A stretch of 55,809 bases of DNA from assembly GCF_003003075.1 (NCBI RefSeq), contig NZ_PVTX01000015.1, positions 1 to 55,809 on the forward strand, given 5' to 3'. Every line of letters begins with the position of its first letter. Position 1 is the first letter of the stretch. A program made the translations under genes and the position numbers. Shown here piece by piece: positions 19,531 to 38,790 of the stretch. The notes under the pieces are model-generated. The model searched no databases and was not told the DNA's origin. It was given only the letters and a program-made list of their open reading frames with translations. Origin of the DNA: Isoptericola halotolerans. GTDB lineage: Bacteria > Actinomycetota > Actinomycetes > Actinomycetales > Cellulomonadaceae.

Positions 19531-19550
19531 CAAACCGACTGGCCGGTACG
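19531..19550 (+). promoter_or_regulatory. Operator of the CAWACCG family, site 1
   Basis: CAAACCG-ACTGGC-CGGTACG, a 7-6-7 dyad. Its right arm runs into TACGGCT, a possible -10 box, 64 nt before the SDR start. It matches the sites at 22820, 30005 and 38771 in spacing and in the ACCG/CGGT core. The operon it precedes encodes a TetR regulator, making that protein the best candidate to bind all four sites. Confidence 0.6.
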
Positions 19551-19614
19551 GCTGGCGCGTACCGCTCGCGACGTGGCGAGGCGGCGTGGACGACGACGTT
19601 CGAGAGGTGGCGCA

Positions 19615-20355
19615 GTGCGCAGGTTCGCAGGAAGGGTCACGCTCGTCACGGGCGCGAGCCGCGGCATCGGACTGGCGGTGGCGCACCGGCTCGTGGCCGA
19701 GGGCGGTCACGTCGTGCTCACCGGCCGCAAGCCGGAGGCGCTCGACGAAGCCGTGGCCGCGCTCGGCCCCGACAACGCGTCCGCCGTCGCCGGCAAGGTC
19801 GACGACAACGCCCACCGGGAGGAGGTCTTCGCGCACGTGGCTGAGCGGTACGGGCGCCTCGACCACCTGGTCAACAACGCGGGCATCAACCCCGCCTGGG
19901 GACCGGTGCTCGAGGTCGAGCCGTCGGTGGTCCGCAAGATCATCGACGTCAACGTGGTGGCCGCCCTGGAGTGGACGCGTGACGCCGTCGCCGCGGGCCT
20001 GCGGTCGTCGATCGTCAACACCGCCTCGATCTCCGGCACCTCCACGAGCCCGAACATCGCCTTCTACGGGGTGTCGAAGGCCGCGCTGATCAACCTCACC
20101 GGCCAGCTCGCCCAGGAGCTGGCGCCCCGGCTGCGCGTGAACGCCGTCGCGCCGGCGGTGGTCAAGACGCACCTGTCCCGAGCCCTCTACGAGGGCAAGG
20201 AGGACGCCGTCGCGGCCGGCTACCCGCTGGGACGGCTGGGCGTGCCCGACGACGTCGCCGGCCCGATCGCGTTCCTGTTGTCCGACGATGCCGGCTGGAT
20301 CACCGGCCAGACACTCCGGATCGACGGTGGCGCGTCCATCGTGCCCGTCGGGTGA
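19615..20355 (+). CDS. Short-chain dehydrogenase/reductase
   Basis: 246 residues, classical SDR. Cofactor motif TGASRGIG (about residue 12), LVNNAGINPAW (NNAG), catalytic Ser in NTASISGT and the YGVSK (Y-x3-K) motif at about residue 150; the C-terminal IAFLLSDDAGWITGQTLRIDGG is FabG-like. Likely an NAD(P)(H)-dependent oxidoreductase for a hydroxyacyl-CoA or alcohol. GTG 19615 has a GAGAGG ribosome site. The next gene's TetR start is within 12 nt, so the SDR, TetR and quinone reductase genes form one operon under operator site 1. Confidence 0.9.
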   Translation: MRRFAGRVTLVTGASRGIGLAVAHRLVAEGGHVVLTGRKPEALDEAVAALGPDNASAVAGKVDDNAHREEVFAHVAERYGRLDHLVNNAGINPAWGPVLEVEPSVVRKIIDVNVVAALEWTRDAVAAGLRSSIVNTASISGTSTSPNIAFYGVSKAALINLTGQLAQELAPRLRVNAVAPAVVKTHLSRALYEGKEDAVAAGYPLGRLGVPDDVAGPIAFLLSDDAGWITGQTLRIDGGASIVPVG

Positions 20356-20366
20356 AGGATGGACCC

Positions 20367-20951
20367 ATGAAGACCACCCACGTCGCCGACTCGGTCCTGC
20401 AGGCAGCCCTCGACCTCTTCGCCACCCAGGGCTACGCGACCACGAGCGTCCAGCAGATCGTCGAGGCCGCCGGCGTCACCAAGGGCGCCATGTACCACTA
20501 CTTCCAGTCCAAGGACGACCTGCTCTTCGCGATCTACGACCGCATGCTGTCGCTGCAGAAGCGCCGGCTCGAGGAGATCGTCGCGGCAGGGGGCACCACG
20601 ACGGACGTCCTGCGCGCGGTGTGCGTCGACGTCGTCGAGACGTCCATCGACCTGCTGCCCGAGGGCACGGTGTTCTTCCGGAGCATGCACATGCTCACGG
20701 AGCCCCGGCGCAAGGAGGTCACCCAGCGGCGGCGGGAGTACCACGACGAGTTCGCCGCGCTCGTCGCCCAGGGGCAGGCCGAGGGAGCCCTGCGGACGGA
20801 CGTGCCGCGCACGGTGCTCATCGCCCACTTCTTTTCCGACGTGCACTACCTGTCGTACTGGTACTCGCCGTCGGGGCCCGAGACCAAGACAGAGGTCGCG
20901 AACCAGCTGACCGACCTCTTCCTGCGCAGCATCACCGTGGAGGACGGATGA
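20367..20951 (+). CDS. TetR-family regulator, likely master of the local regulon
   Basis: 194 residues. The HTH is FATQGYATTSVQQIVEAAGVTKGAMYHYFQSKDDLLFAIYD. The C-terminal end HYLSYWYSPSGPETKTEVANQLTDLFLRSI resembles the W-Y-x-P-x-G-P tail of KstR2-type regulators that bind acyl-CoA ligands; this similarity is by eye. ATG 20367 has AAGGA 7 nt upstream; GTG 20352, overlapping the SDR stop, is the alternative. Its stop overlaps the next start (ATGA). Four CAWACCG-type operators lie within 19 kb, one in front of this operon. Confidence 0.88.
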   Translation: MKTTHVADSVLQAALDLFATQGYATTSVQQIVEAAGVTKGAMYHYFQSKDDLLFAIYDRMLSLQKRRLEEIVAAGGTTTDVLRAVCVDVVETSIDLLPEGTVFFRSMHMLTEPRRKEVTQRRREYHDEFAALVAQGQAEGALRTDVPRTVLIAHFFSDVHYLSYWYSPSGPETKTEVANQLTDLFLRSITVEDG

Positions 20952-21946
20952 CCGAGACCATGCGCGCCTGGCGCGTCACCCGCAACGGCGAGCCGACCGA
21001 GGTCATGAGCCTCGACGAGGTCGACCGCCCCGAGCCCGGGCCGGGGGAGGTGCTCGTGCGCACCCGTGCCGTGGCGGTGAACTTCCCGGACGTCCTGCTC
21101 GCGCGCGGCACCTACCAGGTGCGGCCGGAGCTGCCGTTCGTGCCCGGCATCGAGCTGTGCGGCGACGTCGTCGCGCTCGGCGAGGGAGTCGACGGTCTCG
21201 GGCGCGTCGCCGTCGGCCAGCGCGTGGTGGGTTCGGCGATCGGCGTGCTCTCCGAGTACGCCGTGCTGCCGGCCGCGTCGTGCCACCCGGCGCCGGGCTC
21301 GCTCGACGACGCCCGGGCCGCGGCGCTGACCATCGCCTACCAGACGGCCTGGTTCGGGCTGCACCGCCGTGCGGCGCTCGCCGCGGGCGAGACGCTGCTC
21401 GTCCACGCCGCCGCCGGCGGGGTCGGCACCGCCGCCTGCCAGCTCGGCGCGGCGGCAGGTGCCACGGTGATCGGGGTCGTGGGCAGCGAGGCCAAGGCCG
21501 ACGTCGCCCGGGCGGCCGGCGCCAAGCACGTGCTGATCCGCTCGGACGGCCTCGCCGCCCAGGTCAAGGAGCTGACCGGCGGTGCCGGGGCCGACGTGGT
21601 GTTCGACCCCGTGGGCGGGCCTTCGTTCGAGGCGTCGACCCGGTGCATCGCGTTCGAGGGCCGGATCGTCGTCGTCGGTTTCGCCAGCGGTGAGGTCGCA
21701 CCGGTCCGGGCCAACCATGCGCTGGTGAAGAACTACGGCGTGCTGGGGCTGCACTGGGCGCTCTACCAGCAGCGCGACCCCGCCCTCGTCGACGCGGCGC
21801 ACGTCGAGCTGACGCAGCTCGCCGACGCGGGCGCGCTCGAGCCCGTGGTGGCCGACGTCGTCCCGTTCGACCGGGCCCCGGACGCGGTCCGACGGCTCGC
21901 CGAGGGGACCACGACCGGGCGCCTGGTCGTGCGCGTCGCCGACTGA
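20948..21946 (+). CDS. NADPH:quinone oxidoreductase / zinc-less MDR enzyme
   Basis: 332 residues of the medium-chain dehydrogenase/reductase superfamily, QOR branch. N-terminal GroES-like half (VLVRTRAVAVNFPDVLLARGTYQ...PFVPGIELCGDVVALGEGV), then the NADPH Rossmann domain with LLVHAAAGGVGTAACQLG. The Zn-binding Cys/His set of alcohol dehydrogenases is missing, as in quinone and enoyl reductases. Enoyl-CoA or enone reduction would fit the surrounding acyl-CoA genes. Starts on the TetR stop codon (ATGA). Confidence 0.9.
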   Translation: MTETMRAWRVTRNGEPTEVMSLDEVDRPEPGPGEVLVRTRAVAVNFPDVLLARGTYQVRPELPFVPGIELCGDVVALGEGVDGLGRVAVGQRVVGSAIGVLSEYAVLPAASCHPAPGSLDDARAAALTIAYQTAWFGLHRRAALAAGETLLVHAAAGGVGTAACQLGAAAGATVIGVVGSEAKADVARAAGAKHVLIRSDGLAAQVKELTGGAGADVVFDPVGGPSFEASTRCIAFEGRIVVVGFASGEVAPVRANHALVKNYGVLGLHWALYQQRDPALVDAAHVELTQLADAGALEPVVADVVPFDRAPDAVRRLAEGTTTGRLVVRVAD

Positions 21947-21996
21947 CCCGCCCGACCCTGGCTGGACCGAGGATCCTCTCCGTGCGAAGGAGCACC

Positions 21997-22734
21997 GTGA
22001 CCACTGACCTCACCGACCGCGTCGCGATCGTCACCGGGGGAGCCCGGGGGATCGGCGCCGCCTACGTCCGTGCCCTGCACGACGCCGGCGCGCGCGTGCT
22101 CGTCGCCGACCTGCTGGAGGCGGACGGGTCCGCGCTCGCCCACGAGCTGGGAGACCGCGCCCGGTTCGCCCACCTCGACGTCACCGACGAGGCGGGCTGG
22201 ACCCGGGTCGTCGACGACACGGTCGCGGCATGGGGTGGTGTGGACGTGCTGGTGAACAACGCCGGGATCGCCAACGCCGGCCCGATCGAGCACTACCCGC
22301 GCACCAAGTGGGACGCCGTCATCGCGGTGAACCTGACCGGGACCTACCTCGGCTGCCGGGCGGTCGTGCCGGCGATGAAGACGGCGGGCCGCGGCTCGAT
22401 CATCAACGTCTCGTCCGTCGAGGGCATGCGCGGCAGCACCCACTTGCACGGTTACGTGGCCTCGAAGTTCGGGGTGCGCGGGCTGACGAAGTCGTTGGCC
22501 GTCGAGCTCGGCGCGGACGGCATCCGCGTCAACTCGGTGCACCCGGGATTCATCGACACGGAGATGACGGCGAAGATCGATCCGTCCGGCCTGCCGATCC
22601 CGCTGCGCCGCGGGGGCCGCCCCGAAGACCTGACCGGCACGGTCCTGTACCTGGCCGGCGAGGGGTCCGCCTACGTGACCGGTGCGGAGATCGTGGTCGA
22701 CGGCGGCATGATCAACGGCGTGGGGCACCTCTGA
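21997..22734 (+). CDS. SDR oxidoreductase, 3alpha/20beta-HSD-like
   Basis: 245 residues. TGGARGIG cofactor motif, LVNNAGIANAGPIE, catalytic Ser in NVSSVEGM, YVASK at about residue 152 and a C-terminus with GEGSAYVTGAEIVVDGGMI. The overall pattern is close to Streptomyces 3alpha,20beta-hydroxysteroid dehydrogenase and FabG3-type enzymes, which oxidise secondary alcohols. GTG 21997 has AAGGAG five nt upstream; GTG 21982 would have none. It lies 50 nt after the quinone reductase and may belong to the same transcript. Confidence 0.9.
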   Translation: MTTDLTDRVAIVTGGARGIGAAYVRALHDAGARVLVADLLEADGSALAHELGDRARFAHLDVTDEAGWTRVVDDTVAAWGGVDVLVNNAGIANAGPIEHYPRTKWDAVIAVNLTGTYLGCRAVVPAMKTAGRGSIINVSSVEGMRGSTHLHGYVASKFGVRGLTKSLAVELGADGIRVNSVHPGFIDTEMTAKIDPSGLPIPLRRGGRPEDLTGTVLYLAGEGSAYVTGAEIVVDGGMINGVGHL

Positions 22735-22815
22735 GCCACTGACCGTCCGGCCTCGTGACCTGCGTCGAAGGCCTTCCTGAACCATCTGTGTCACAGCCGT
22801 GCAACAACCGTCAAA

Positions 22816-22845
22816 ATGACATACCGTCCAGTCGGTTTATACGCT
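22816..22845 (+). promoter_or_regulatory. Operator site 2 in the Liv-importer promoter
   Basis: CATACCG-TCCAGT-CGGTTTA (22820-22839), same geometry as the other three sites. A promoter can be read as ATGACA (22816-22821), 18-nt spacer, TACGCT (22840-22845). The dyad therefore fills the spacer and touches the -10 box, the arrangement expected for TetR repression of the five-gene importer operon that starts at 22879. Confidence 0.65.
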
Positions 22846-22878
22846 AGGGTGTGACGCATCCGACACGAAGAGGTGCCG

Positions 22879-23607
22879 ATGTCCAGCAACACACCGCGAC
22901 TCCAGGTCGACGGGCTCACTGTCACGTTCGGTGGTCTCACCGCGCTCGACGACGTCAGCTTCACCGTGGGCGACGCCGAGACGGTGGCGCTCATCGGTCC
23001 CAACGGGGCCGGCAAGACGACGGTGTTCAACGCCGTCTGCTCCTTGGTCCGGCCCCGTGCCGGCACCGTCCGCATCGACGGCCGGCCCGCACCCACAGCG
23101 CCGACCGGGCTGCCGGCCCGCGGGGTCTCGCGGACGCTGCAGGGGCTCGGCCTGTTCGCCGGGATGACGGTCCTGGAGAACGTGCTCGTCCCGCTGGTGG
23201 GTCCGGCGATTTCGACCGCCGTACCGGACGCGGCGCCGGCCGTGCTCGAACGCCTCGGCCTGTCTGCCGAGGCGGGGACCCCGGTCGACGCCCTGCCGTA
23301 CCCGGAGCGCAAGCGGGTCGCGCTCGCGAGGGCCCTCGTCACCGGGCCGCGGCTGCTGCTCCTGGACGAGCCGGCCGGCGGACTGGGTGCGGAGGACATC
23401 GCCGACCTCGCCGGGATCGTCCGCGGCCTCTCCGCGGACGGCTGCTCGGTGCTGCTCGTGGAGCATCACGTGGACTTCGTCATGGACGTCGCCGACCGGG
23501 TCGTCGTGCTCGACTTCGGCCGCGTCGTCGCCTGCGGGACGCCGGACGAGGTCCGTGCCGACCCGGCCGTCGAGGCGGCCTACCTCGGACTGGAGGCTGC
23601 GGCGTGA
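22879..23607 (+). CDS. livG: Branched-chain amino-acid-type ABC ATPase (LivG)
   Basis: 242 residues, a little shorter than usual LivG. Walker A GPNGAGKTT, signature region LPYPERKRVALARAL (LivG proteins have a loose LSxG motif), Walker B LLLLDEPAGGL, and HHVDFVMDVADRVVVLDFGRVVACGTPDEV, a LivG hallmark. ATG 22879 follows AAGAGG; GTG 22873 is possible. First gene of livG-F-H-M plus a binding protein, all joined by 4-nt or smaller overlaps, under operator site 2. Confidence 0.92.
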   Translation: MSSNTPRLQVDGLTVTFGGLTALDDVSFTVGDAETVALIGPNGAGKTTVFNAVCSLVRPRAGTVRIDGRPAPTAPTGLPARGVSRTLQGLGLFAGMTVLENVLVPLVGPAISTAVPDAAPAVLERLGLSAEAGTPVDALPYPERKRVALARALVTGPRLLLLDEPAGGLGAEDIADLAGIVRGLSADGCSVLLVEHHVDFVMDVADRVVVLDFGRVVACGTPDEVRADPAVEAAYLGLEAAA

Positions 23608-24359
23608 CCACCCCGACCGAGACTCCCGCGACCACGACGACCCGGACGATGCTCGCGATCGAGGGCCTCACCGTCGGCTACGCCGGCGCCCCTGTCATCG
23701 ACGGCATGCGCCTCGACGTGCCCCACGGCGCCGTGGTGGCGCTCCTGGGCGCCAACGGAGCCGGCAAGACGACGCTGCTGCGCACGGTCTCCGGCCTGGT
23801 GCGGCCTCGCTCCGGGCGGATCAGCCTGGACGGGCAGGACCTGTCGGGGCTCAGCGTCGAGGACCGGGTCCGGCGAGGCCTGGCCCAGGTCCCCGAGGGG
23901 CGCAGCGTCGTGTCCGAGCTCACGGTCGAGGAGAACCTGCACCTCGGTGCGCTCTGGAAGATCCCGGGCCGGTCCGCGCGCCGCGCCGCCGTGGCCGAGG
24001 TGTACGAGGCCTTCGAGCCGCTCGCGCGCCGACGGCGCAGCATGGGTCACCAGCTCTCCGGTGGTGAGCGTCAGATGCTCGCCCTGGCGCGGGCGCTCGT
24101 CGCCCGTCCACGGGTGCTGCTCCTCGACGAACCGTCGCTCGGCCTCGCGCCACGCGTCGTCGCCCAGCTGTTCGCGATCCTGCGGGACACCGCGGAGCGC
24201 ACCGGGCTGACGGTGCTGCTCGCCGAGCAGAACGTCACCAGCGCACTCTCGATCGCCGACCGCGGCGTCGTGCTCGGCCTGGGGGAGATCGTCGCCGACG
24301 CTCCGGCCGCCGAGATCGCCGCCGACCCTGCCCTCCGGCACGCCTACCTGGGGTTCTGA
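23604..24359 (+). CDS. livF: Branched-chain amino-acid-type ABC ATPase (LivF)
   Basis: 251 residues. Walker A GANGAGKTT, the LivF-typical VPEGRSVVSELTVEENLHLGA stretch, signature LSGGERQMLALARAL, Walker B VLLLDEPSLGLAPRVV and LLAEQNVTSALSIADRGVVLGLGEIV. GTG start overlaps the livG stop (GTGA). Pairs with LivG to drive import. Confidence 0.95.
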   Translation: MTTPTETPATTTTRTMLAIEGLTVGYAGAPVIDGMRLDVPHGAVVALLGANGAGKTTLLRTVSGLVRPRSGRISLDGQDLSGLSVEDRVRRGLAQVPEGRSVVSELTVEENLHLGALWKIPGRSARRAAVAEVYEAFEPLARRRRSMGHQLSGGERQMLALARALVARPRVLLLDEPSLGLAPRVVAQLFAILRDTAERTGLTVLLAEQNVTSALSIADRGVVLGLGEIVADAPAAEIAADPALRHAYLGF

Positions 24360-25237
24360 TGGATCGTCTCGCCTTCCTCCTCGCCACGGGCCTCGCCCGC
24401 GGCCTGGTCATCGCTCTCTTCGCCCTGTCGCTGGTGATCATCTGGCGCGCCGCCCGCATCGTGAACTTCGCCCAGGCGGCCATGGCGATCGTCGCGGTCT
24501 ACGTGGCGTTCGCCGTGACGCAGGCCACCGGCTCGTTCTGGCTCGGGCTCGCTGCCGCCCTGGTCACCGGAGCCGCCGTCGGGGCCGCCGTCGAACGCTG
24601 GCTGATCCGGCTCGTGCCCAGTACCACGCCGCTACCCGGCATGATCGTGGCGATCGGCCTGGTGATGGTCCTGCAGTCGGCCATCAGCATCGCCTTCGGG
24701 CCGAAGCACCGCCCGATGGCCGCGCCCTTCAGCGAGCAGCCGTTCTCCGTCGGCGGGGTGGCCGTGCTCTCGCCCTACGACCTGTTCATCCTGCTCGTGG
24801 CCCTCGGCGTGGTGGCCGTCCTGGCCGTGCTGTTCAACGGGACCACGCTCGGGCTGCAGATGCGGGCGTCCGCGATGGCCCCCGAGGTGTCTCGGCTGCT
24901 GGGCGTCCGGGTGCCGCGGATGATCACCCTCGGCTGGATGCTGTCGTCCGCCGTCGCGGCGCTCGCGGTGCTGCTGCTCGTGCCCACCGAGCTCGGCCTG
25001 AACGCGCACAGTGCGGACATCCTGTTCGTCCACGCCTTCACGGTGGCGGTGCTCGGCGGGCTGGACTCGCCCAGCGGTGCGCTCGTCGGCGGAGTGGTCG
25101 TCGGCATCCTCATCAGCCTGGTCACCGGGTTCCTCGGCGCAGGTCTCGCGCCGATCGCGGTGCTCGTCCTGCTCACCGTCGTCCTGCTCGTGCGGCCGGG
25201 CGGCATCTTCGCAGCCAAGGAGGCGCGGACCGCATGA
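24359..25237 (+). CDS. livH: Branched-chain amino-acid-type ABC permease (LivH)
   Basis: 292 residues, about eight membrane segments. LIIWRAARIVNFAQAAMAIVAVYVAF near the N-terminus is the conserved N-F-A-Q-G segment of LivH, and GLQMRASAMAPEVSRLLGVRVPRMITLGWMLSSAVAALA is the cytoplasmic coupling region. ADILFVHAFTVAVLGGLDSPSGALVGGVVVGI near the C-terminus is also typical. ATG overlaps the livF stop by 1 nt. Confidence 0.93.
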   Translation: MDRLAFLLATGLARGLVIALFALSLVIIWRAARIVNFAQAAMAIVAVYVAFAVTQATGSFWLGLAAALVTGAAVGAAVERWLIRLVPSTTPLPGMIVAIGLVMVLQSAISIAFGPKHRPMAAPFSEQPFSVGGVAVLSPYDLFILLVALGVVAVLAVLFNGTTLGLQMRASAMAPEVSRLLGVRVPRMITLGWMLSSAVAALAVLLLVPTELGLNAHSADILFVHAFTVAVLGGLDSPSGALVGGVVVGILISLVTGFLGAGLAPIAVLVLLTVVLLVRPGGIFAAKEARTA

Positions 25238-26313
25238 CCGCCACCATCAGCTCTCGGACCCGCGGGATCGTGCTGCGGGCGCTCGCGCTGACCGTGCTCG
25301 CGCTCGCCGCGACGTTCCTGCTCGACTCCTACCGGAACTACCAGCTCGCCGTCGTCGCCGCGGTGTTCTGCGCGACGGCCGGGCTCACCCTGCTGGTCGG
25401 GCTCACCGGGCAGCTCTCCCTCGGGCACGCCGTGCTGATGGCGTGCGGCGGCTACGGCTATGCGCTGGCCGCAGGGTTCGCCGTCGAGGTAGACCTCAGC
25501 GGGATGCTGCGCTTCGCGCTCGGGATCGTCGGAGCCGTCGTCGTCGCCGGAGCAGTCGGCGGTCTCCTCGGGCTCGCCGGAGCCCGGCTGCGGGGGCCCT
25601 ACCTGGCGGGACTCACCCTGGCACTCGTCATCGCGTTGCCCGCGTTCACCTCGCAGGTCCCGGGTCTGGGTGGTGACCAGGGCCGGAACGTCCCCTTCGA
25701 GCCGGTCCCGGACTGGCTCGCCCCCGTGCTGTTCAGCACCGAGCAGTGGCACGCGTGGATCGCGATCCTCGTCGCCGCCGTCGCGGTCACCCCGCTGGCC
25801 GTCCTGCGCTCGGGGAGGGCGGGCCTGCGCATGCGGGCCGTCCACGGTGACGAGGTCGCCGCGCGCCTGGCCGGCATCTCGCCCGGCCGGGTCAAGTCCC
25901 ACGCCTTCGTCGCCGGTGCGCTCTCGGCCGGGCTCGGGGGCGCGGTGCTCGCGATCGTCACCCAGAACGTCAGCCCCGGCGGCTACGACCTGGCCTTCTC
26001 GCTCCTGCTGCTCGTGGCCGTGGTCGTCGGCGGGCTGGGCAGCATCGGGGGAGCCGCCGTGGGTTCGGTCCTGGTGGTCCTGCTGCCGTGGCTCATCGAC
26101 ACCCTCACGACGTCGGTGGGCCTGCCCGCCGACGTCGAGCAACGACTCTCGGGGAACCTCGTGGTCCTCGTCTTCGGAGCGCTCCTCATCCTCGTCACCG
26201 TCGTCTGGCCCGGCGGGTTGTCGCACGCCTTCGCCGGGCGCCTCGGTTCCCTGTCCGCCCGGCTCCGCCGGCGGTCCGACCAGCACGTCCCGCAATCGCT
26301 CACAGAGAGGTGA
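25234..26313 (+). CDS. livM: Branched-chain amino-acid-type ABC permease (LivM)
   Basis: 359 residues with about ten membrane segments. FCATAGLTLLVGLTGQLSLGHAVLMACGGY matches the LivM N-terminal signature (G-x-x-G-Q-x-S-x-G-H), and RMRAVHGDEVAARLAGISPGRVKSHAFVAGALSAGLGGA is the coupling loop plus following helix. The C-terminal tail is basic (RLRRRSDQH). ATG overlaps the livH stop (ATGA). Confidence 0.93.
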   Translation: MTATISSRTRGIVLRALALTVLALAATFLLDSYRNYQLAVVAAVFCATAGLTLLVGLTGQLSLGHAVLMACGGYGYALAAGFAVEVDLSGMLRFALGIVGAVVVAGAVGGLLGLAGARLRGPYLAGLTLALVIALPAFTSQVPGLGGDQGRNVPFEPVPDWLAPVLFSTEQWHAWIAILVAAVAVTPLAVLRSGRAGLRMRAVHGDEVAARLAGISPGRVKSHAFVAGALSAGLGGAVLAIVTQNVSPGGYDLAFSLLLLVAVVVGGLGSIGGAAVGSVLVVLLPWLIDTLTTSVGLPADVEQRLSGNLVVLVFGALLILVTVVWPGGLSHAFAGRLGSLSARLRRRSDQHVPQSLTER

Positions 26314-26318
26314 CTCCC

Positions 26319-28888: not shown

Positions 28889-28889
28889 C

Positions 28890-29951: not shown

Positions 29952-30002
29952 CGATGACCCCATCTCTCGATCGGACCCGGCGTCGGCGCCGGGCGTGACC
30001 GC

Positions 30003-30024
30003 AGCATACCGCGTGGTCGGTATG
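30003..30024. promoter_or_regulatory. Operator site 3, perfect dyad
   Basis: CATACCG-CGTGGT-CGGTATG (30005-30024) with perfect 7-bp arms. On the minus strand the arm continues into TATGCT (30008-30003), a good -10 box for the kinase/ACAD operon. It also lies in the divergent region before the hydrolase gene at 30137 and could serve both. Confidence 0.75.
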
Positions 30025-31036: not shown

Positions 31037-31056
31037 CGGCGCCGTACGATCGCCGG

Positions 31057-32028
31057 GTGAGCGTGCCCACGCAGTGGCTGCTGGACTCCGACCCCGCGCT
31101 GCGGTGGCAGGTGGAACGCGACCTGCTCGGGCTCCCCGCGGAGACGTGGCGGGCGACGCGGGCGCGGGTCGCCACGGAGGGGTTCGGTGCGCGGCTGCTG
31201 GCCCACCAGGACGACGACGGCCGGTGGGCCGGTGGCGCCTTCTTCCCCGGCGGGCAGGCGTACTTCGAGGTGCAACGCGCCGAGGTCGACCCGCCCCAGC
31301 CGTGGACGGCCACGACCTGGTCCCTCAACGCGTTGCGCGAGTGGGGTCTCGACGCCGCCGTCCTGCAGGCCAACGGCACGCCGGGGCTGCTCGCGCGGCA
31401 CTGTCGCTGGGAGTACGACGACCTGCCCTACTGGGACGGTGAGGTCGACTGCTGCATCAACGCCTTCACGCTCGCCAACGGCGCCTGGCTCGGGGTGGAC
31501 GTGACCAAGATCCTCGGCCGTCTGGTCGACGGCCGGATGCGCGACGGTGGCTGGAACTGCGAGTGGGTCGAGGGTGCGACGGTCTCGTCGTTCGTCTCCA
31601 CGCTGAACGTGCTCACGGGGCTGCTCGACTACGAGCAGATCGTGGGCGGTGACGCGGAGGCGCGTGAGGCGCGCCGGACCGGCGAGGAGTACCTGCTGGC
31701 GCGGAGGCTGCTCCGCCGGTTGTCGACCGGCGAACCGATCGGCCCGTGGACGCTCCGGTTCGAGTACCCGTTCCGCGGGCACTACAGCGCCCTGCGCGCC
31801 GCCGACTACTTCCGGCGTGCCGCGCTGCACGACGGCGTCGCGCCGGACGAGCGCCTCGCCGAGGCGGTCGAGGTGGTCCGGGCAGCGCGGCGCGACGACG
31901 GCCGGTGGGTCCGGGAGCGGCGGCACGCGGGCGAGGTGTGGTTCGAGGTGGACGTCGCGGCGGGTCGCCCCTCGCGGTGGCTCACCCTGACCGGCGAGCT
32001 GCTGCTGCGGTGGTGGGACGGCTCCTGA
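31057..32028 (+). CDS. Squalene-cyclase-like / prenyltransferase-repeat protein
   Basis: 323 residues. Repeats of the alpha/alpha-barrel type: DDDGRWAGGAFF, YWDGEVDCCINAFTLANGAWLG, RMRDGGWNCEW and RRDDGRWVRERR, like the QW-type repeats of squalene cyclases and prenyltransferases. It lacks a DxDD cyclase motif, so a cyclase activity is unlikely. Widely found as a single gene in Actinobacteria with no known function. GTG 31057 lies 6 nt after TACGAT (31045-31050), suggesting a leaderless mRNA; GTG 31033, overlapping the upstream stop, is possible. Confidence 0.75.
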   Translation: MSVPTQWLLDSDPALRWQVERDLLGLPAETWRATRARVATEGFGARLLAHQDDDGRWAGGAFFPGGQAYFEVQRAEVDPPQPWTATTWSLNALREWGLDAAVLQANGTPGLLARHCRWEYDDLPYWDGEVDCCINAFTLANGAWLGVDVTKILGRLVDGRMRDGGWNCEWVEGATVSSFVSTLNVLTGLLDYEQIVGGDAEAREARRTGEEYLLARRLLRRLSTGEPIGPWTLRFEYPFRGHYSALRAADYFRRAALHDGVAPDERLAEAVEVVRAARRDDGRWVRERRHAGEVWFEVDVAAGRPSRWLTLTGELLLRWWDGS

Positions 32029-32031
32029 GGG

Positions 32032-32448
32032 TCACGCTGCCGGGGTGAGCAGCTGCTGCTCGACGGCGGAACGGATCGACGCCGGGACCGGCACCGGCCG
32101 CTGCGTGGCGGCGTCGACGAACACGTGCGTGAACCGGCCCTCGGCGACCGGCTTCTCGTCGCCGGAACGCAGGATGGGCAGGTCCCACGTGATGCTGGTG
32201 GTGCCGAGTCGTTCGACGCCGATGGCGACCTCGAGGTCGTCGTCCGGGTAGGAGACGGGGGCGCGGAACTCGCACGACGACGCCACGCAGTAGCCCCGCA
32301 CGGCCCCGGCCGGGTCGAGCCCTGCCTCGCGGATCATCCACGTGTTCACGGCGGTGTCCATGGCCTGGTAGTACACGGTGTTGTTGACGTGGCCGTACTG
32401 GTCGTTGTCGTTCCAGCGCAGCGGGAACGGATGACGGGCGCGGGGCAT
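32032..32448 (-). CDS. 4HBT-type hotdog thioesterase
   Basis: 138 residues, single hotdog domain. RWNDNDQYGHVNNTVYYQAMDTAVNTWM contains the conserved Asp/His segment of the 4-hydroxybenzoyl-CoA thioesterase (YbgC/FadM) group, which hydrolyses acyl-CoA to free acid and CoA. ATG follows GAGAGGA. It precedes a convergent gene by 3 nt. Downstream of the TetR gene 32482 in the same direction, 33 nt apart, so the two may form one operon with the promoter at 33153. Confidence 0.9.
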   Translation of the reverse strand: MPRARHPFPLRWNDNDQYGHVNNTVYYQAMDTAVNTWMIREAGLDPAGAVRGYCVASSCEFRAPVSYPDDDLEVAIGVERLGTTSITWDLPILRSGDEKPVAEGRFTHVFVDAATQRPVPVPASIRSAVEQQLLTPAA

Positions 32449-32481
32449 GGCGGTCCTCTCGGTGCTCTCGAACGGGTGCGC

Positions 32482-33135
32482 TCAGGCGCGCAGCAGGTGG
32501 CGGAAGGCGGAGCGCGCGGCGTCGGTGCTGGGCGGCTCGCCGGCGATGAGGTCGGCGTAGGTGAAGGACTCCGAGACGCGGACCAGCAGGTAGGCGAGCG
32601 CGTGCCGGTCGATGGCGCCGTCGAACGGCCGCTCGCCGAGGTGCTCGCGCACGAGCTGCTCGACGGTGGCGACGTAGCGCTGCTGGATGGGGCTCGCCGA
32701 CGTCGTCAGGAGACGCAGCGCTCGGGCGGGCTCGCGGCTCAGGAACGTGCGGAAGTAGTCCGCCTCGATGAGGTCGGTGGCGAAATGGCTGAGCAGGGCG
32801 GCCAGGTACGCCGCGCCGGCCGGTGCGGCGCCGTCGGGCCCGGGCTCCGACGCCGCCCGCTCGGCCTGCACGAGCGTCGGCACGGCGAGCGACCAGAGGA
32901 CCTCCGACAGCAGGGCGTCGCGGTTGCCGACCCAGCGGAAGACGGACGTGCGGTCCACGCCGAGCTCGGTCGCGAGGCCGCCCATGTCGATGCGGTGACC
33001 TGAGACGAAGGTCTCACGTGCCTGCTCGAAGGCGCGCAGGGCGTCGGGGTGGACGCCGGGCACGAGCCGTGCGGACAGCCGGGTCGGCGCGGCCCGCAGG
33101 CCCACGGTGGCGATGTCGCTCGACGGGGAGAGCAT
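32482..33135 (-). CDS. TetR-family regulator, QsdR-like
   Basis: 217 residues. The HTH is FEQARETFVSGHRIDMGGLATELGVDRTSVFRWVGNRDALLSEVLWSLAVPTL, where the usual Y-x-x-F is W (FRWVGNRD), as in QsdR-type regulators. The C-terminal domain (LLVRVSESFTYADLI) is helical. The open frame continues to 33204, but ATG 33135 is preferred because an 8-bp-arm dyad (33153-33177) would otherwise be inside the gene. Divergent from the acyl-CoA dehydrogenase 33228, which it probably controls. Confidence 0.85.
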   Translation of the reverse strand: MLSPSSDIATVGLRAAPTRLSARLVPGVHPDALRAFEQARETFVSGHRIDMGGLATELGVDRTSVFRWVGNRDALLSEVLWSLAVPTLVQAERAASEPGPDGAAPAGAAYLAALLSHFATDLIEADYFRTFLSREPARALRLLTTSASPIQQRYVATVEQLVREHLGERPFDGAIDRHALAYLLVRVSESFTYADLIAGEPPSTDAARSAFRHLLRA

Positions 33136-33152
33136 GCGGAGCAGCCTAGCCG

Positions 33153-33177
33153 GATGTTGCGCGACGGGTGCAACATC
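33153..33177. promoter_or_regulatory. TetR-type dyad between divergent genes
   Basis: GATGTTGC (33153-33160), 9-nt spacer, GCAACATC (33170-33177). Perfect arms, placed 17 nt before the TetR start and 50 nt before the acyl-CoA dehydrogenase start. It is unlike the CAWACCG sites, so this regulator controls its own local unit. Confidence 0.7.
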
Positions 33178-33227
33178 TCGCAGAATGATGCACACTGACG
33201 CCACGGATCGACGACGATCGGAGCACC

Positions 33228-34460
33228 ATGACTCTCACCACCCCGGCCACCACCCCGCAGACCCACGCCGCCGCTGCTCTTGCGGTACCCGAGGTGCTGG
33301 ACGCCGACTTCTACGGTTTCCAGGACCTCCTGACCCCCGTGGAGCAGGAAGCCGTCGGCCGCGTCCGCGACTTCATGGAGCGCGAGGTGCGCCCCCTCGC
33401 CGACGACTACTGGGACCGCGCCGAGTGCCCGGTCCACCTGTTCAAGCCCTTCGCCGAGCTCGGCTCGGTCGGCGCTGCCTGGTCCGAGACCAGGCAGTTC
33501 GAGAACTCCGCGGTGTTCCGCGGCTGGGTCGGCATGGAGCTCGCGCGGGTGGACTCCTCCTTCTGCACCTTCATCGGCGTCTCCAGCGGGCTGGCGATGA
33601 GCTCGATCGGTCTGGGCGGTTCGCCGGAGCAGCGGGCCGCGTGGCTCCCGCCCATGGCGCGCGGCGACCTCATCGGTGCCTTCGGTCTCACCGAGCCGCT
33701 GTCCGGGTCCGACACGGCCCGTGGCCTGCGCACCACCGCCACGCGGCACGGCGACACCTGGGTGCTCGACGGCGCCAAGCGCTGGATCGGCAACGCGACG
33801 TTCGCGGACGTCGTCGTCATCTGGGCCAAGGACACGGCCGACGACCAGGTCAAGGGCTTCATGGTCCGCAAGGGCACGCCCGGCTTCACCGCCACGAAGA
33901 TCGAGCGCAAGCAGTCGCTGCGCATCGTGCAGAACGCAGACATCACGCTCGAGAACGTCGAGATCGCCGAGTCCGACCGGCTCCAGGGCATCAACAGCTT
34001 CAAGGACCTGGCCAACGTGCTGCGCGTGACCCGCGACGGCGTCTCGTGGCAGGCGCTCGGCACCATGATCGGCGCCTACGAGGCCGCCGTGACGTACACC
34101 AAGGAGCGCGAGCAGTTCGGGAACCCGATCGCGTCCTACCAGCTGGTCCAGGACAAGCTCGCCACCGGGCTCGGGAACATCACCGCCAGCATCGCGATGT
34201 GCGTCCGCCTCGCGCAGATGCAGGACGAGGGCACCCAGCGCGACCAGCACGCCGCGCTGGCCAAGGCGTTCGTCACCACCCGGATGCGCGAGACCGTCGC
34301 CCTGGCCCGCGAGGTCTGCGGTGGCAACGGCATCACCCTCGACACCGGGGTCGCGCGCTACTTCGCCGACGCCGAGGCCGTCTACACGTTCGAGGGCACC
34401 CGGGACATGAACCAGCTCATCGTCGGGCGTTCGATCACGGGCCACGCGGCCTTCGTGTGA
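33228..34460 (+). CDS. Acyl-CoA dehydrogenase, GCDH/ACX4-like
   Basis: 410 residues. FAD-binding FGLTEPLSGSDTARGLRTTA and AKRWIGNATFADVVVIWAK; the C-terminal end YTFEGTRDMNQLIVGRSITG carries the catalytic Glu in the position typical of glutaryl-CoA dehydrogenases. The substrate loop reads VDSSFCTFIGVSSGLAMSSI. True glutaryl-CoA enzymes have an Arg here (GYRSAMSVQ), so the enzyme more likely oxidises a short neutral acyl-CoA, as plant ACX4 does. ATG follows GGAGC. First gene of a pair with the thiolase; divergent from its presumed TetR regulator. Confidence 0.92.
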   Translation: MTLTTPATTPQTHAAAALAVPEVLDADFYGFQDLLTPVEQEAVGRVRDFMEREVRPLADDYWDRAECPVHLFKPFAELGSVGAAWSETRQFENSAVFRGWVGMELARVDSSFCTFIGVSSGLAMSSIGLGGSPEQRAAWLPPMARGDLIGAFGLTEPLSGSDTARGLRTTATRHGDTWVLDGAKRWIGNATFADVVVIWAKDTADDQVKGFMVRKGTPGFTATKIERKQSLRIVQNADITLENVEIAESDRLQGINSFKDLANVLRVTRDGVSWQALGTMIGAYEAAVTYTKEREQFGNPIASYQLVQDKLATGLGNITASIAMCVRLAQMQDEGTQRDQHAALAKAFVTTRMRETVALAREVCGGNGITLDTGVARYFADAEAVYTFEGTRDMNQLIVGRSITGHAAFV

Positions 34461-34507
34461 ACCGAAGACTCGCGCGACACGAACTCGTCTGAGAGAGGAC
34501 CCAGATC

Positions 34508-35731
34508 ATGACCGAGGCCTACATCGTGGCCACCGCGCGCTCTCCCATCGGGCGCGCGTACAAGGGGTCGCTGCGCGAGCTGCGCGCCGACGACCTCGCC
34601 GCCCAGATGGTGCGCGCCGCCCTGGACAAGGTGCCGGCGCTCGACCCCGCCCGCATCGACGACCTCATCCTCGGCTGCGGCCTGCCCGGCGGCGAGCAGG
34701 GGATGAACATGGGGCGGATCGTCGCCGTCCTCCTCGGGCTCGACTCCGTCCCCGGGACCACCGTGACCCGCTACTGCTCGTCCAGTGTGCAGTCGACCCG
34801 CATGGCCTTCCACGCCATCAAGGCCGGCGAGGGCGACGTCTTCGTCTCCGCGGGCGCCGAGTCCGTCAGCCGCATGGTCAAGGGCTCGTCGGACTACATC
34901 GAGGGTCAGGACCTGGAGAACCCGCGCTTCGCCGGCGCCACCGAGCGCACGGCCAAGCGCGCCGTCGGGGGAGCGCCCGTCTGGTCCGACCCGCGCGCCG
35001 ACGGTGAGCTGCCCGACGCCTACATCGCCATGGGGCAGACGGCGGAGAACCTCGCCTCCGTGCACGGCATCAGCCGCGCCGAGCAGGACGAGTTCGCCGC
35101 CCGCTCCCAGCAGCGGGCCGAGCGGGCGATCGCGGACGGCTTCTGGTCGCGCGAGATCACCCCCGTGACGCTGCCGGACGGCACCGTCGTGTCGGCCGAC
35201 GACGGCCCGCGGCCCGGGACCACCGTCGAGAAGCTCGCGGGGCTGGACCCGGTGTTCCGGCCCGACGGCACCGTGACCGCGGGCAACGCCTGCCCGCTCA
35301 ACGACGGTGCCGCCGCGCTCGTCGTCGTCTCCGGCCGTGTGGTCGAGGAGCTGGGCCTGCAGCCGATCGCCCGGATCGTGTCCACCGGCGTCACCGGGCT
35401 GTCCCCGGAGATCATGGGGCTCGGGCCCGTCGAGGCGAGCCGGCAGGCCCTCGACCGAGCGGGTCTGACGATCGACGACATGGACCTGGTGGAGATCAAC
35501 GAGGCGTTCGCCGCCCAGGTGATCCCGTCGGCCCGCGAGCTGGGCATCGACGAGGACAGGCTCAACGTGCACGGCGGGGCGATCGCCGTCGGGCACCCGT
35601 TCGGCATGACCGGGGCACGCATCACCACCACCCTGCTCAACGGCCTGGAGTCGACCGGCGGTCGCTACGGCCTGGAGACGATGTGCGTCGGTGGCGGCCA
35701 GGGGATGGCCATGGTGCTCGAGCGGCTCTGA
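34508..35731 (+). CDS. Acetyl-CoA C-acyltransferase (thiolase)
   Basis: 407 residues. Acyl-accepting Cys in TRYCSSSVQSTRMAF (about residue 92), GGAIAVGHPFGMTGAR with the catalytic His, and ETMCVGGGQGMAMVLERL with the second Cys. NEAFAAQV is also conserved. Cleaves 3-ketoacyl-CoA with CoA in beta-oxidation, or the reverse. ATG follows GAGAGGAC, 47 nt after the acyl-CoA dehydrogenase stop. Confidence 0.95.
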   Translation: MTEAYIVATARSPIGRAYKGSLRELRADDLAAQMVRAALDKVPALDPARIDDLILGCGLPGGEQGMNMGRIVAVLLGLDSVPGTTVTRYCSSSVQSTRMAFHAIKAGEGDVFVSAGAESVSRMVKGSSDYIEGQDLENPRFAGATERTAKRAVGGAPVWSDPRADGELPDAYIAMGQTAENLASVHGISRAEQDEFAARSQQRAERAIADGFWSREITPVTLPDGTVVSADDGPRPGTTVEKLAGLDPVFRPDGTVTAGNACPLNDGAAALVVVSGRVVEELGLQPIARIVSTGVTGLSPEIMGLGPVEASRQALDRAGLTIDDMDLVEINEAFAAQVIPSARELGIDEDRLNVHGGAIAVGHPFGMTGARITTTLLNGLESTGGRYGLETMCVGGGQGMAMVLERL

Positions 35732-35762
35732 CCCTCTCCCGGGCAGCACGGCGCACGTCCCT

Positions 35763-35820
35763 TCGGCAGGAAGCAACCAGCTCGGCACGCATGCGTGCCG
35801 AGCTGGTTGCTTCCTGCCGA
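35763..35820. terminator. 58-bp perfect palindrome
   Basis: Two exact 29-bp arms with no loop, starting TCGGCAGGAAGCAACCAGC and centred on GCATGC (about 35792). It fills the space between the thiolase and the convergent oxidase-like gene, touching the stop codon of the latter. A bidirectional terminator is the simplest reading. Confidence 0.7.
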
Positions 35821-36309: not shown

Positions 36310-36355
36310 GACGCCATCCTGCCCGACCCGCTCCGGGCCGGGCAGGACGCGCTGC

Positions 36356-36835
36356 TCAGTGCTCGGGGACGTACAGCGCCAGGGACTCGGCCACGAGCGC
36401 CGGCTTGCCGGCACCCTCGATCTCGATCGTGACCGTCGCGGCGAGCCGGACGCCCTGGGCGGTGTGCTCCGCGCCCGTGATCTCAGTGGTCGCACGGATC
36501 CGGGCACCGGCCGGCACCGGGGTGAGGAACCGCACCTTGTCCAGCCCGTAGTTGACGGCCATCGCGACGTCGCCGACCTCGATCAGCTCGCCCGTGAGGC
36601 GGGGGAGCAGCGACAGCGTCAGGAAGCCGTGCGCGATCGTCGTGCCGAACGGCCCCGCGGCCGCCCGCTCGGCGTCCAGGTGGATCCACTGGTGGTCCTC
36701 GGTCGCGTCGGCGAACGCGGCGATCCGGTCCTGGTCGATGGTGAACCACTCGCCGGTGGCCTGCTGCCCGACGGCGTCGGCGAGCGCCGCGGGGTTCGCG
36801 ACCTGGATGACGCCGTTCACGCTCTGCGCGGTCAT
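36356..36835 (-). CDS. MaoC-family (R)-specific enoyl-CoA hydratase
   Basis: 159 residues, single hotdog domain. The hydratase motif is FADATEDHQWIHLDAERAAAGPFGTTIAHGFLTLSLLP, with Asp and His at the D-x4-H spacing of MaoC/PhaJ enzymes. Adds water to trans-2-enoyl-CoA to give (R)-3-hydroxyacyl-CoA. ATG overlaps the stop of the upstream SDR gene (ATGA). Third gene of the ADH-SDR-MaoC operon. Confidence 0.93.
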   Translation of the reverse strand: MTAQSVNGVIQVANPAALADAVGQQATGEWFTIDQDRIAAFADATEDHQWIHLDAERAAAGPFGTTIAHGFLTLSLLPRLTGELIEVGDVAMAVNYGLDKVRFLTPVPAGARIRATTEITGAEHTAQGVRLAATVTIEIEGAGKPALVAESLALYVPEH

Positions 36836-37593
36836 GCCTTCGGCCCTCCCGCGACGTACAGCACCTGGCCGTTGGTGAAGCCGGCCTCGTCGGAGCAGAA
36901 GAACGACACGGCGGCCGCGATGTCCTCGGGCTGCCCGACGCGTCCGGCGGGCACCTCCTTGGCCATGTGCGCCAGGAAGTCCTCCAGCGGGACGCCGACG
37001 CGCGCGGCGGTCTCGGCGATCATGTCCGTCGCGATGACGCCGGGGGCCACCGCGTTGGCGGTGACGCCGAACTTGCCGAGCTCGATCGCGAGGGTCTTGG
37101 TGAAGCCCTGCATGCCCGCCTTGGCCGCGGCGTAGTTGGCCTGGCCCCGGTTGCCGAGCGCCGACGTGCTGGACAGGTTGACGATGCGACCCCAGCCGGC
37201 GTCGATCATGTGCTTCTGCACGGCGCGGGTCACCAGGAAGGCGCCGCGCAGGTGGACGCCGAGCACGGCGTCCCAGTCGTCGGTGGACATCTTGAACAGC
37301 AGGTTGTCGCGCAGGATCCCGGCGTTGTTGACCAGGATGGTCGGGGCGCCGAGCTCGGTGACCACGCGTTCCACGGCGGCGGTGACGGCGTCCTCGTCCG
37401 CCACGTCGACGCCGACGCCGATCGCGCGGTGCCCGTCCGCGGTGAGCTTCGCGGCGGTCTCGGCGGCGACGTCCTCGAGCAGGTCGAGCACGGCGACGGC
37501 GTGGCCGTCGGCCGCGAGGCGGGCGGCGGTCGCGGCGCCGATGCCGCGGGCACCGCCGGTGACGACGGCGACGCGGGGGGTGGTGCTGGTCAT
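36832..37593 (-). CDS. FabG-like 3-oxoacyl/3-hydroxyacyl reductase (SDR)
   Basis: 253 residues. TGGARGIG, LVNNAGILRDNLLFKMSTDDWDAVLGVHLRGAF, Ser in NLSSTSALGN and YAAAKAG (Y-x3-K) match PhaB/FabG4-type enzymes; N-A-V-A-P-G-x-I-x-T is present. Likely acts as (R)-3-hydroxyacyl-CoA dehydrogenase with the MaoC hydratase that is translated by overlap. ATG lies within the ADH stop (37590-37593 overlap). Confidence 0.93.
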   Translation of the reverse strand: MTSTTPRVAVVTGGARGIGAATAARLAADGHAVAVLDLLEDVAAETAAKLTADGHRAIGVGVDVADEDAVTAAVERVVTELGAPTILVNNAGILRDNLLFKMSTDDWDAVLGVHLRGAFLVTRAVQKHMIDAGWGRIVNLSSTSALGNRGQANYAAAKAGMQGFTKTLAIELGKFGVTANAVAPGVIATDMIAETAARVGVPLEDFLAHMAKEVPAGRVGQPEDIAAAVSFFCSDEAGFTNGQVLYVAGGPKA

Positions 37594-38720
37594 GCGGGTG
37601 TCCTCTCGTCGAAGGTGATCAGCTGGCGCAGCTCCTCGCCGGCGGCGAGGCGGTCCAGCGCGCGGGGCAGCTCGTCCAGCCCGATGCGGGCGGAGACGAG
37701 TCGTTCCAGCGGCAGTCGTCCTGCTCGCCAGAGTTCCACGTAGCGGGGGATGTCGCGGCTCGGGACGGCCGAGCCGAGGTAGGAGCCGACGACGGTGCGG
37801 GCCTCGGCGGTCAGGCTCAGCGGGGAGATGCTCGCCCGGGCGTCCGGGCCGGGCAGGCCGACGGTGACGGTGGTGCCGCCGGGGGCGGTCAGGGCGTAGG
37901 CGGTCTCGAAGGCGCGGGCGTTCCCGGCGGCCTCGACGACGACGGGGGCCCTCACCCCGGTGTCGAGCGCCTCGGCCGGCGTGAGGGCGCGGGCGCCCAG
38001 CTCGCGGGCGAGGTCGAGCTTGGCGGGGACCATGTCGATGCCGATCACCTCGTGGCCGAGCGCCGCGGCCACCAGGAGCGCGGCCATGCCGACACCCCCG
38101 AGCCCGACGACGGCGACGGCCTCACCCGTGGCGGGCCGGCCCGCGTTGAGCACGGCGCCGCCACCGGTGAGCACCGCGCAGCCGAGCAGCGCCGCGACGT
38201 CCGCGGGGACGTCGTCGGGCACGGGGACCACGGACGTGGCCGACACGACGGCGTGGGTGGCGAAGGCGCTCACGCCCAGGTGATGGTGCACGTCGGCGCC
38301 GTCGCGGTGCAGGCGGCGCACACCGCCGACGAGCTCGCCGACGACGTTGGCCGCGGACCCCACGGAGCAGGGCAGGCGGCCGTCGGTGGCGCACTCCGCG
38401 CACCGCCCGCAGCGCGGCAGGAAGGTCATGACGACGCGGGTGCCGACGGCGATGCCTGCGTCAGCCGGGGCGTCGGTGCCCGGGCCCACGGCCTCGACGA
38501 TCCCGGCGGCCTCGTGGCCGAGCAGCATCGGGGTGGGGCGCACGCGGTTGCCGTCGACGACGGAGAGGTCGGAGTGGCACAACCCGGCGGCTTCGATGCG
38601 GACCCTGAGCTCGCCGGGTCCGGGCGGGTCGAGCTCGAGCGGCCCCACGGTGAGCGGGCGCGAGTCGGCCCAGGGGGCGGGTGCTCCGCAGCGTTCCAGC
38701 ACGGCACCGGTGATCTGCAC
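37590..38720 (-). CDS. Zinc-dependent alcohol dehydrogenase
   Basis: 376 residues, medium-chain type. Catalytic zinc residues in GLCHSDLSVVDG and GHEAAGIVEAVGPG; structural zinc Cys set CGRCAECATDGRLPC; cofactor loop GLGGVGMAALLVAAALGHEVIGIDM with an Asp that suggests NAD. It resembles class III-like long-chain alcohol dehydrogenases. GTG 38720 has GGAGG 7 nt upstream. First gene of the operon with FabG-like and MaoC genes, under operator site 4. Confidence 0.93.
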   Translation of the reverse strand: MQITGAVLERCGAPAPWADSRPLTVGPLELDPPGPGELRVRIEAAGLCHSDLSVVDGNRVRPTPMLLGHEAAGIVEAVGPGTDAPADAGIAVGTRVVMTFLPRCGRCAECATDGRLPCSVGSAANVVGELVGGVRRLHRDGADVHHHLGVSAFATHAVVSATSVVPVPDDVPADVAALLGCAVLTGGGAVLNAGRPATGEAVAVVGLGGVGMAALLVAAALGHEVIGIDMVPAKLDLARELGARALTPAEALDTGVRAPVVVEAAGNARAFETAYALTAPGGTTVTVGLPGPDARASISPLSLTAEARTVVGSYLGSAVPSRDIPRYVELWRAGRLPLERLVSARIGLDELPRALDRLAAGEELRQLITFDERTPA

Positions 38721-38768
38721 GGTACGACCTCCTCGTCGTGTGTCCTCAGGGTAGAGACTCGTGCGGCC

Positions 38769-38790
38769 AGCATACCGACCGCGCGGTATG
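38769..38790 (-). promoter_or_regulatory. Operator site 4, perfect dyad
   Basis: CATACCG-ACCGCG-CGGTATG (38771-38790) with perfect 7-bp arms. On the minus strand the right arm continues into TATGCT (38774-38769), a -10 box for the alcohol dehydrogenase operon that starts at 38720. Identical arms to site 3. Confidence 0.75.

Follow-up and report, generated by a model that had tools for sequence, protein, structure and literature searches.

PaaR (BCAL0210) of Burkholderia cenocepacia is described in PMC2770484 as a TetR-type repressor that controls several catabolic operons through the operator ACCGACCGGTCGGT, a dual overlapping inverted repeat located between −10 and −35. Sites of PfmR (TTHB023; PDB 3vpr) of Thermus thermophilus are reported to map to promoters of fatty-acid biosynthesis genes (PMC7022988). 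For QsdR of Rhodococcus erythropolis (PDB 4za6), release of repression by homoserine lactone and gamma-caprolactone has been described (PMC6262395, PMC6476934), the calorimetry given in PMC4640858 indicating no affinity for acyl-homoserine lactones. Among catabolic enzymes, mammalian ACAD10/11 and the lva operon are reported to feed 4-hydroxy acids into beta-oxidation (PMC11342911, PMC12440821). Here we analyse a contig of Isoptericola halotolerans (NZ_PVTX01000015.1; 55,809 nucleotides, hereafter the window; contig C15 of a 22-contig, 3.85 Mb genome, G000), in which the palindrome CAWACCG-N6-CGGTWYR recurs at four promoters and is predicted to be the operator of a TetR-family repressor, TetR1, encoded at 20367–20951 (+ strand). 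Sequence comparison makes the reading of these units as a regulon with TetR1 as its regulator well supported.

The four operators were assigned by motif scan and site conservation. Operator 1 (19531–19550, + strand; CAAACCGACTGGCCGGTACG) precedes an operon for a short-chain dehydrogenase/reductase (SDR), TetR1, a quinone oxidoreductase and a second SDR; operator 2 (22820–22839, + strand; CATACCGTCCAGTCGGTTTA) precedes the liv importer genes; operator 3 (30005–30024) lies between an APH kinase–acyl-CoA dehydrogenase unit (− strand) and a hydrolase gene (+ strand); and operator 4 (38771–38790) belongs to an operon for an alcohol dehydrogenase (ADH), FabG and MaoC. The original prediction, made from the window alone, had placed the motif at 19531, 22820, 30005 and 38771; these positions are correct, the window holds no further site, and operators 3 and 4 are indeed perfect 7-bp dyads, each matching on both strands. 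Its account of the gene content is likewise upheld (SDR/TetR/quinone reductase, LivGFHMK, APH kinase/acyl-CoA dehydrogenase with a divergent alpha/beta hydrolase, ADH/FabG/MaoC), with the second SDR gene to be added. The motif yields six strand-matches at these four places, against a mean of 0.01 in shuffled sequence (0 of 100 shuffles reach six), and its N6 spacer is itself constrained, all four sites having an ACCGACY or RGTCGGT half-site. Frequent occurrence at unrelated promoters had been named beforehand as evidence against a regulon; across 3.85 Mb there are only five exact places, four in the window cluster and one at a carboxylesterase gene (C5:64135), with none for the reversed control.

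TetR1 has an N-terminal TetR helix-turn-helix domain (Pfam TetR_N, E 3.8e-19) followed by TetR_C_24 (E 1.3e-25), and its AlphaFold model (mean pLDDT 92.7) has the predicted fold of a TetR protein. Its closest named relatives, 93% identical, are from Isoptericola. PfmR is the second of two PDB profile matches to TetR1 under 1e-25 and is also in the fold list, as are FadR, EthR and AibR; no ligand follows from the fold by itself. As given in PMC7022988, the PfmR site that was predicted first resembles the motif core. In a sample of 149 genomes of the order, with orthologues called at E 1e-30, TetR1 is present in ten, each of them containing between two and four sites that bear an ACCGACY or RGTCGGT half-site, whereas none of the 139 genomes without TetR1 holds two such sites and three hold one. 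Within the genus, a full orthologue occurs in 11 of 18 genomes, and exact sites in 14 of 18 (reversed control, 0). Conserved palindromic sites are found at the promoter of TetR1's own operon and at those of its predicted targets; in six loci (L087, L100–L102, L173 and L174) a site lies directly upstream of TetR1 with no SDR gene between them, and all 27 aligned sequences share the recognition segment GVTKGA(M/L)YHY, which varies only at the M/L position. The original choice of the protein encoded at 20367 as regulator is borne out to the extent that the motif follows this protein across genomes and adjoins its gene in these six loci; DNA binding is predicted.

A second regulator in the cluster, TetR2 (32482–33135, − strand; TetR_C_36, QsdR-like by Pfam and PDB profile comparison), could be the reader of the four sites instead, as could its TetR_C_36 paralogue on contig C16. 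TetR2 was searched as 32482–33138 and as a longer open reading frame (ORF) to 33204, and order genomes were scored positive at E under 1e-50, weak relatives in G063, G106 and G134 not being counted. It occurs in the same 11 genus genomes as TetR1, and the paralogue has a motif copy before its gene in G000, G001, G007 and G012. Against this, the promoter of TetR2 itself has a different palindrome; TetR2 is present in all ten TetR1-bearing order genomes and in three more, the latter lacking well-formed, half-site-bearing sites of the TetR1 type; and the paralogue is found in only four of the 11 TetR1-bearing genus genomes. TetR2 was rejected as reader of the CAWACCG motif on co-occurrence and on the palindrome in its own promoter, and we consider an assignment to either protein highly improbable.

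Conservation of the sites beyond the genome was assessed in 80 named loci with a TetR1 relative and in fetched stretches, with genes mapped by tblastn (matches under 50% identity or half length ignored). The named loci were selected by TetR1, which is hence present in every one. A site was counted at a score of at least 17 with a matrix trained on 19 genus sites, so that the Isoptericola rows are not independent; rows with a cut 95-base context were dropped, and loci from the genome search partly repeat named species (distinct contexts: SDR 76, liv 71, APH 21, ADH 9). A site precedes the SDR gene in 83 of 87 loci of the SDR–TetR1 class, LivG in 73 of 73, ADH in 9 of 9 and APH, as a site of its own, in 22 of 36. 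In 13 of the 14 APH loci without their own site the gene follows LivK on the same strand and is therefore probably inside the liv operon; in the other (L080) it stands behind FabG, whose own site is present. Information content is 1.61–1.78 bits per operator position, compared with 0.10–0.59 in the flanks. Of 24 genus loci fetched around sites outside G000, 21 have the site before familiar genes (SDR 7, APH 6, LivG 3, ADH 2, FabG–MaoC 1, esterase 2), and the remaining three, from genomes without TetR1 (G014–G016), have different gene contexts. The similar operators there (L113, L114 and L115, each at 1501–1520) have a TetR gene next to them in L113 and L115, identified by Pfam for L113 only.

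At a greater distance, an Actinomadura locus (L100; TetR1 52% identical) has two sites, one of them flanked by TetR1 and a livG homologue, the other placed at the 5′ end of a gene for an AMP-binding acyl-CoA ligase; judged by its sequence, it displays the same theme. In L166 (G037) a beta-lactamase-family serine hydrolase gene (PF00144; 11436–12614) diverges from the ADH operator and is possibly an esterase under the same site. Near operator 3, the window has an ORF at 31060–32028, between the hydrolase and a thioesterase gene, that gave no Pfam match; its homologues directly follow operator 3 in L120 and L124.

Elsewhere in the genome, 33 bases separate the carboxylesterase site from the downstream ATG of a COesterase-family protein, and homologues of this protein (67–74% identical) in six fetched stretches from G001, G003, G007 and G012 each have a site upstream. 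One-mismatch matches add C16:1701–1720 (matrix score 24.8), before the TetR_C_36 regulator gene, a site that recurs in G001, G007 and G012; four others were dropped at matrix scores of −0.8 to 10.9. A looser pattern, TACCG-N4-GTCGGT, finds ten places against one for its control: six known sites, two credible new ones (19.3 and 18.9) and two weak ones, on C2 (12.2) and C14 (under 10), that were dropped. Of the new sites, C8:156544 precedes an acyl-CoA dehydrogenase gene and C16:11249 (C16:11246–11265; L223) a PucR-type regulator gene. The dehydrogenase provides a natural test of whether the motif follows TetR1 across the genus: the gene is present in all 18 genus genomes, and a site (17.8–22.2) stands before it in six of the 11 with TetR1 (G000, G001, G003, G007, G008 and G012) versus none of the seven without it (Fisher, 0.025). 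The PucR-type gene occurs in six genus genomes, all with TetR1, and has an upstream site in each (17.8–24.6). The two C16 sites are 9.5 kb apart, and both are kept in G001, G007 and G012; the 20 kb around them contain no clear catabolic operon by ORF starts alone, no family search having been made.

Four window sites, the carboxylesterase, the acyl-CoA dehydrogenase and the two regulator genes thus give eight credible sites in the genome, and the regulon of G000 is probably wider than the original pattern by these last four genes. The expectation that sites would occur only at acyl-CoA genes does not strictly hold: credible sites also precede two regulator genes. Alternatively, the motif might be read by a regulator that, like PaaR, acts broadly on aromatic or general fatty-acid catabolism, with the cluster as part of a larger beta-oxidation regulon. 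The operator core is the same as that of PaaR, acyl-CoA dehydrogenase, thiolase and MaoC genes lie nearby, the additional dehydrogenase elsewhere has a site, and the two-mismatch genome matches were only partly inspected. However, only eight credible sites were found, the dehydrogenase–kinase pair behind operator 3 is of the 4-hydroxyacyl type (see below), and no paa gene is recognized by Pfam beside the window sites, where the MaoC gene scores 50.6 of 562.8 bits with the PaaZ model; the regulator is accordingly not filed as PaaR. A broad regulator of this kind appears quite unlikely.

The position of the operator relative to the predicted promoter elements differs between units. Candidate −10 boxes were sought as TANN(A/G/T)T in the distinct contexts and compared with shuffles. 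The strings quoted in the original prediction as −10-like, each running on from the right operator arm, are present at all four sites, but those at operators 1 and 2 are not the conserved boxes. Of the SDR-class contexts, 59 of 76 have the box upstream of the operator (shuffled, 6.5); it is represented here by a predicted −10, TAGCGT, at 19517–19522 (+ strand), so operator 1 would cover the start-site region. In the liv class, 57 of 71 contexts have a box that starts precisely 25 bases on from operator base 1, corresponding to a predicted −10, TAGGGT, at 22845–22850 (+ strand), five bases beyond the TACGCT first proposed. At operators 3 and 4, TATGCT overlaps the operator itself (30003–30008 and 38769–38774, both − strand), and the CT that completes it behind the operator arm is conserved in both the APH and the ADH class, but TATGCT itself falls outside the box pattern, which is little above shuffles there (3 of 21 versus 1.5 and 1 of 9 versus 1.0, respectively). 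Beyond operator 4, at 38880–38895, is a perfect TCGAAC-N4-GTTCGA palindrome, which matches the actinobacterial LexA/SOS box. It precedes ORFs with an ImuB-like (IMS) domain and a DnaE-type polymerase, so that an SOS mutasome promoter seems to stand back to back with the ADH operon and its TetR1 operator.

The original prediction had tied transporter and enzymes to one signal. The analysis does not support this, since the liv promoter also has a conserved palindrome in common with the promoter of the TetR2 gene. Between TetR2 and the gene for a second acyl-CoA dehydrogenase (ACAD2), the conserved palindrome TGCAACAT-N8-ATGATGCA defines, by pattern and matrix, a predicted TetR2 operator at 33169–33192 (TGCAACATCTCGCAGAATGATGCA); a further palindrome there, TGTTGC-N9-GCAACA at 33155, recurs in few loci and was dropped as a candidate. 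A matrix built from eleven sites of the TetR2–ACAD2 type, none of them from liv promoters, identifies a candidate TetR2-type operator at the liv promoter (22800–22823, + strand; TGCAACAACCGTCAAAATGACATA; score 18.3) that overlaps operator 2 by 4 bp. Hits of at least 10 with this matrix number 45 in the 2.0 Mb of locus sequence, all but five of them at the promoters of TetR2 or liv, versus 0 in 600 kb of shuffled sequence. Searched with at most one mismatch in the 18 genus genomes, TGCAACA-N9-ATGAYRYA occurs at 18 places, only before TetR2 (11 of 11 TetR2-bearing genomes) and liv (7 of 11), with one hit for the reversed control. By pattern or matrix, all 11 genomes with both regulators have a copy in the liv promoter (weak in G003, 9.2), at an offset of 20 in eight and of 29 or 30, one helical turn apart, in G004, G010 and G011. 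The GCAACA/TGTTGC box is present in 12 of 17 TetR2–ACAD2 slices, and the other five, several of them incomplete, have a matrix site. Because TetR2-type copies are conserved beside the TetR1 operator, the liv promoter appears to take two inputs; on the same comparisons, the second palindrome is probably read by TetR2.

Alternatively, the GCAACA box at the liv promoter might be an activator site. It lies within 100 bp before the operator in 24 of 71 distinct liv contexts (shuffled, 2.0); 18 of these have it at exactly 10 bp from the operator and lack a full palindrome of score 10, and the positions over the 24 contexts (10, 19 and 29) differ by about one helical turn. By contrast, no liv sites went into training the matrix by which the Isoptericola liv element scores, and in the 18 genus genomes the full pattern is confined to TetR2 and liv. 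We find an activator doubtful and retain TetR2 as the candidate reader of this element.

The genes under these promoters, identified by Pfam unless stated otherwise, encode an SDR oxidoreductase (19615–20355, +; adh_short_C2), a zinc-type quinone oxidoreductase/ADH (20948–21946, +), the second SDR (21982–22734, +), LivGFHMK (22879–27599, +), an acyl-CoA dehydrogenase of the ACAD11/LvaC type (ACAD1; 27686–28918, −; PDB profile matches and residues), an APH-fold kinase of the ACAD11 kinase-domain/LvaA type (28890–29963, −), an alpha/beta hydrolase (30137–31036, +; Pfam and NCBIfam), a 4HBT acyl-CoA thioesterase (32032–32448, −), ACAD2 with a thiolase (33228–35731, +) and the ADH–FabG–MaoC set (36356–38720, −). 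The best PDB matches of ACAD1 are ACAD11 structures (2wbi, 1.2e-130; 8v3u, 4e-129), and the kinase matches ACAD11 (8v3v) at E 2.8e-48, ranked after two other proteins. In alignments (RLGPGRIHHCMR with ADGPDEVH), ACAD1 keeps the HCMR motif, the upstream Arg (R626) and the catalytic Asp (D753), and the kinase keeps the catalytic Asp of HGD (D220) and the downstream Asn (N225). PMC12440821 ties the upstream Arg, HCMR and Asp to the handling of 4-phosphoacyl-CoA, and the HGD Asp and the Asn to the kinase.

These ACAD11-type residues, the ACAD10/11–lva precedent and the kinship of TetR2 with QsdR favour 4-hydroxy-acid/gamma-lactone catabolism, and on these sequence features we give a 4-hydroxy acid or its gamma-lactone a slight preference as substrate. 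TetR1 may also control the four units for a different substrate, such as a branched or cyclic acid, a terpenoid or a macrolactone: the SDR, ADH and esterase genes are generic, the best NCBIfam matches of the hydrolase at 30137 are macrolide/lactone esterases (all below cut-offs), and PDB relatives of the binding protein LivK do not fix its ligand. The ACAD11-specific residues checked are nevertheless kept, and the only PDB relative of TetR2 under E 0.001 is QsdR, for which release by gamma-lactones is described in the reports cited above; we give another substrate a probability of roughly a third. AMP-binding ligases adjoin ACAD1 in L165, L168 and L171.

The following findings count against the regulon as proposed, or against parts of it. 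No site of score 17 is present at four of the 87 SDR loci (L079 and L096–L098), three of them forming a 60–61%-identical branch with the same helix, and five of the 11 TetR1-bearing genus genomes lack a site before the additional acyl-CoA dehydrogenase. In G014 and G016, which lack TetR1, a similar site lies 25–28 bp before another TetR gene (L113 and L115), so that use of this operator type is not confined to one TetR subfamily; the motif copy before the TetR2 paralogue in four genomes, a protein that may autoregulate, is a comparable case. Two-mismatch genome matches number 85 + 80 versus 44 + 37 for the control, among the matches listed, and since they exceed the control and were not all inspected singly, the regulon may be larger. 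The PfmR consensus obtained by REPSA, as given in PMC7022988, differs from the first predicted site. For TetR2, the right half of its site at liv is degenerate, five matrix hits of at least 10 fall elsewhere in the 2.0 Mb (highest 19.6, in L070), and the protein is only a distant relative of QsdR (42.6 bits). No acyl-CoA ligase or proven lactonase was recognized among the window genes scanned.

With these points weighed, we consider the following model likely as a whole: a TetR1 repressor regulon for 4-hydroxy-acid/gamma-lactone catabolism with a two-input liv promoter, in which we infer binding, repression, ligand, substrate and the reading of the second palindrome by TetR2 from sequence. With no ligand bound, a TetR1 dimer would occupy the start-site region at its own operon, a stretch immediately preceding the −10 at liv, and the −10 region itself at the APH–ACAD and ADH–FabG–MaoC operons; all four units would stay off until a pathway metabolite, probably an acyl-CoA, released the repressor. 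The unlinked carboxylesterase, acyl-CoA dehydrogenase and two regulator genes would probably respond as well. The substrate would be imported by the Liv-type system, activated with CoA, phosphorylated and relieved of phosphate by the split ACAD11-type pair, and passed to beta-oxidation. The liv promoter would act as a two-input gate, with the TetR2 site overlapping the TetR1 operator there and a TetR2 operator before ACAD2–thiolase. More tentatively, at somewhat less than even confidence, we propose that the two TetR repressors are unrelated, the first having a PaaR/PfmR-like operator and the second being QsdR-like, and that they respond to different gamma-lactone/4-hydroxy-acid intermediates and meet only at the importer promoter, their operators overlapping or set one helical turn further apart. 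Were this so, uptake would open only with both signals, and two more regulator genes would in their turn be set by TetR1.

For a cluster that is conserved in several actinobacterial genera, the analysis provides an assignment of operator, regulator and likely pathway, and it suggests a bacterial counterpart, with its own regulation, of the recently described ACAD10/11 route. It also supplies candidate inducers (4-hydroxy acids and gamma-lactones), an operator ready for use in a biosensor and a case of two TetR-type operators predicted to overlap at one uptake promoter. No publication on this regulon was among the literature matches listed. Of the described regulators, BkaR of mycobacteria is similar in that this TetR repressor controls both its own gene and an acyl-CoA regulon and has a palindromic operator, but was rejected as a match, its operator as given in PMC3920632, GTTA(N)T(N4)A(N)TAAC, being unrelated to the CAWACCG motif. 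TetR2 resembles QsdR as a distant relative (E 6.3e-10; TetR_C_36, E 1.8e-39), whereas its neighbours by Pfam are thioesterase, ACAD2 and thiolase genes instead of the qsdA lactonase and qsdC ligase; as these are not adjacent, it is filed only as a distant QsdR relative. The enzymes share with ACAD10/ACAD11 and LvaA/LvaC, as far as these are described in the cited reports, an APH-type kinase and a special acyl-CoA dehydrogenase with HCMR, upstream Arg and catalytic Asp. They differ in that their genes are split, follow a TetR-type operator and neighbour a Liv importer, with no ligase found among the window genes scanned. PaaR is close in its operator, whose core equals that of the motif and which overlaps the promoter here too; by contrast, PaaR controls phenylacetate genes and TetR1 would control liv, ACAD11-type and ADH units through an operator with additional outer CAT/ATG bases, the likeness being judged by operator. 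The locus is thus a new regulon of a known TetR kind, its unusual part being the two-repressor importer promoter.

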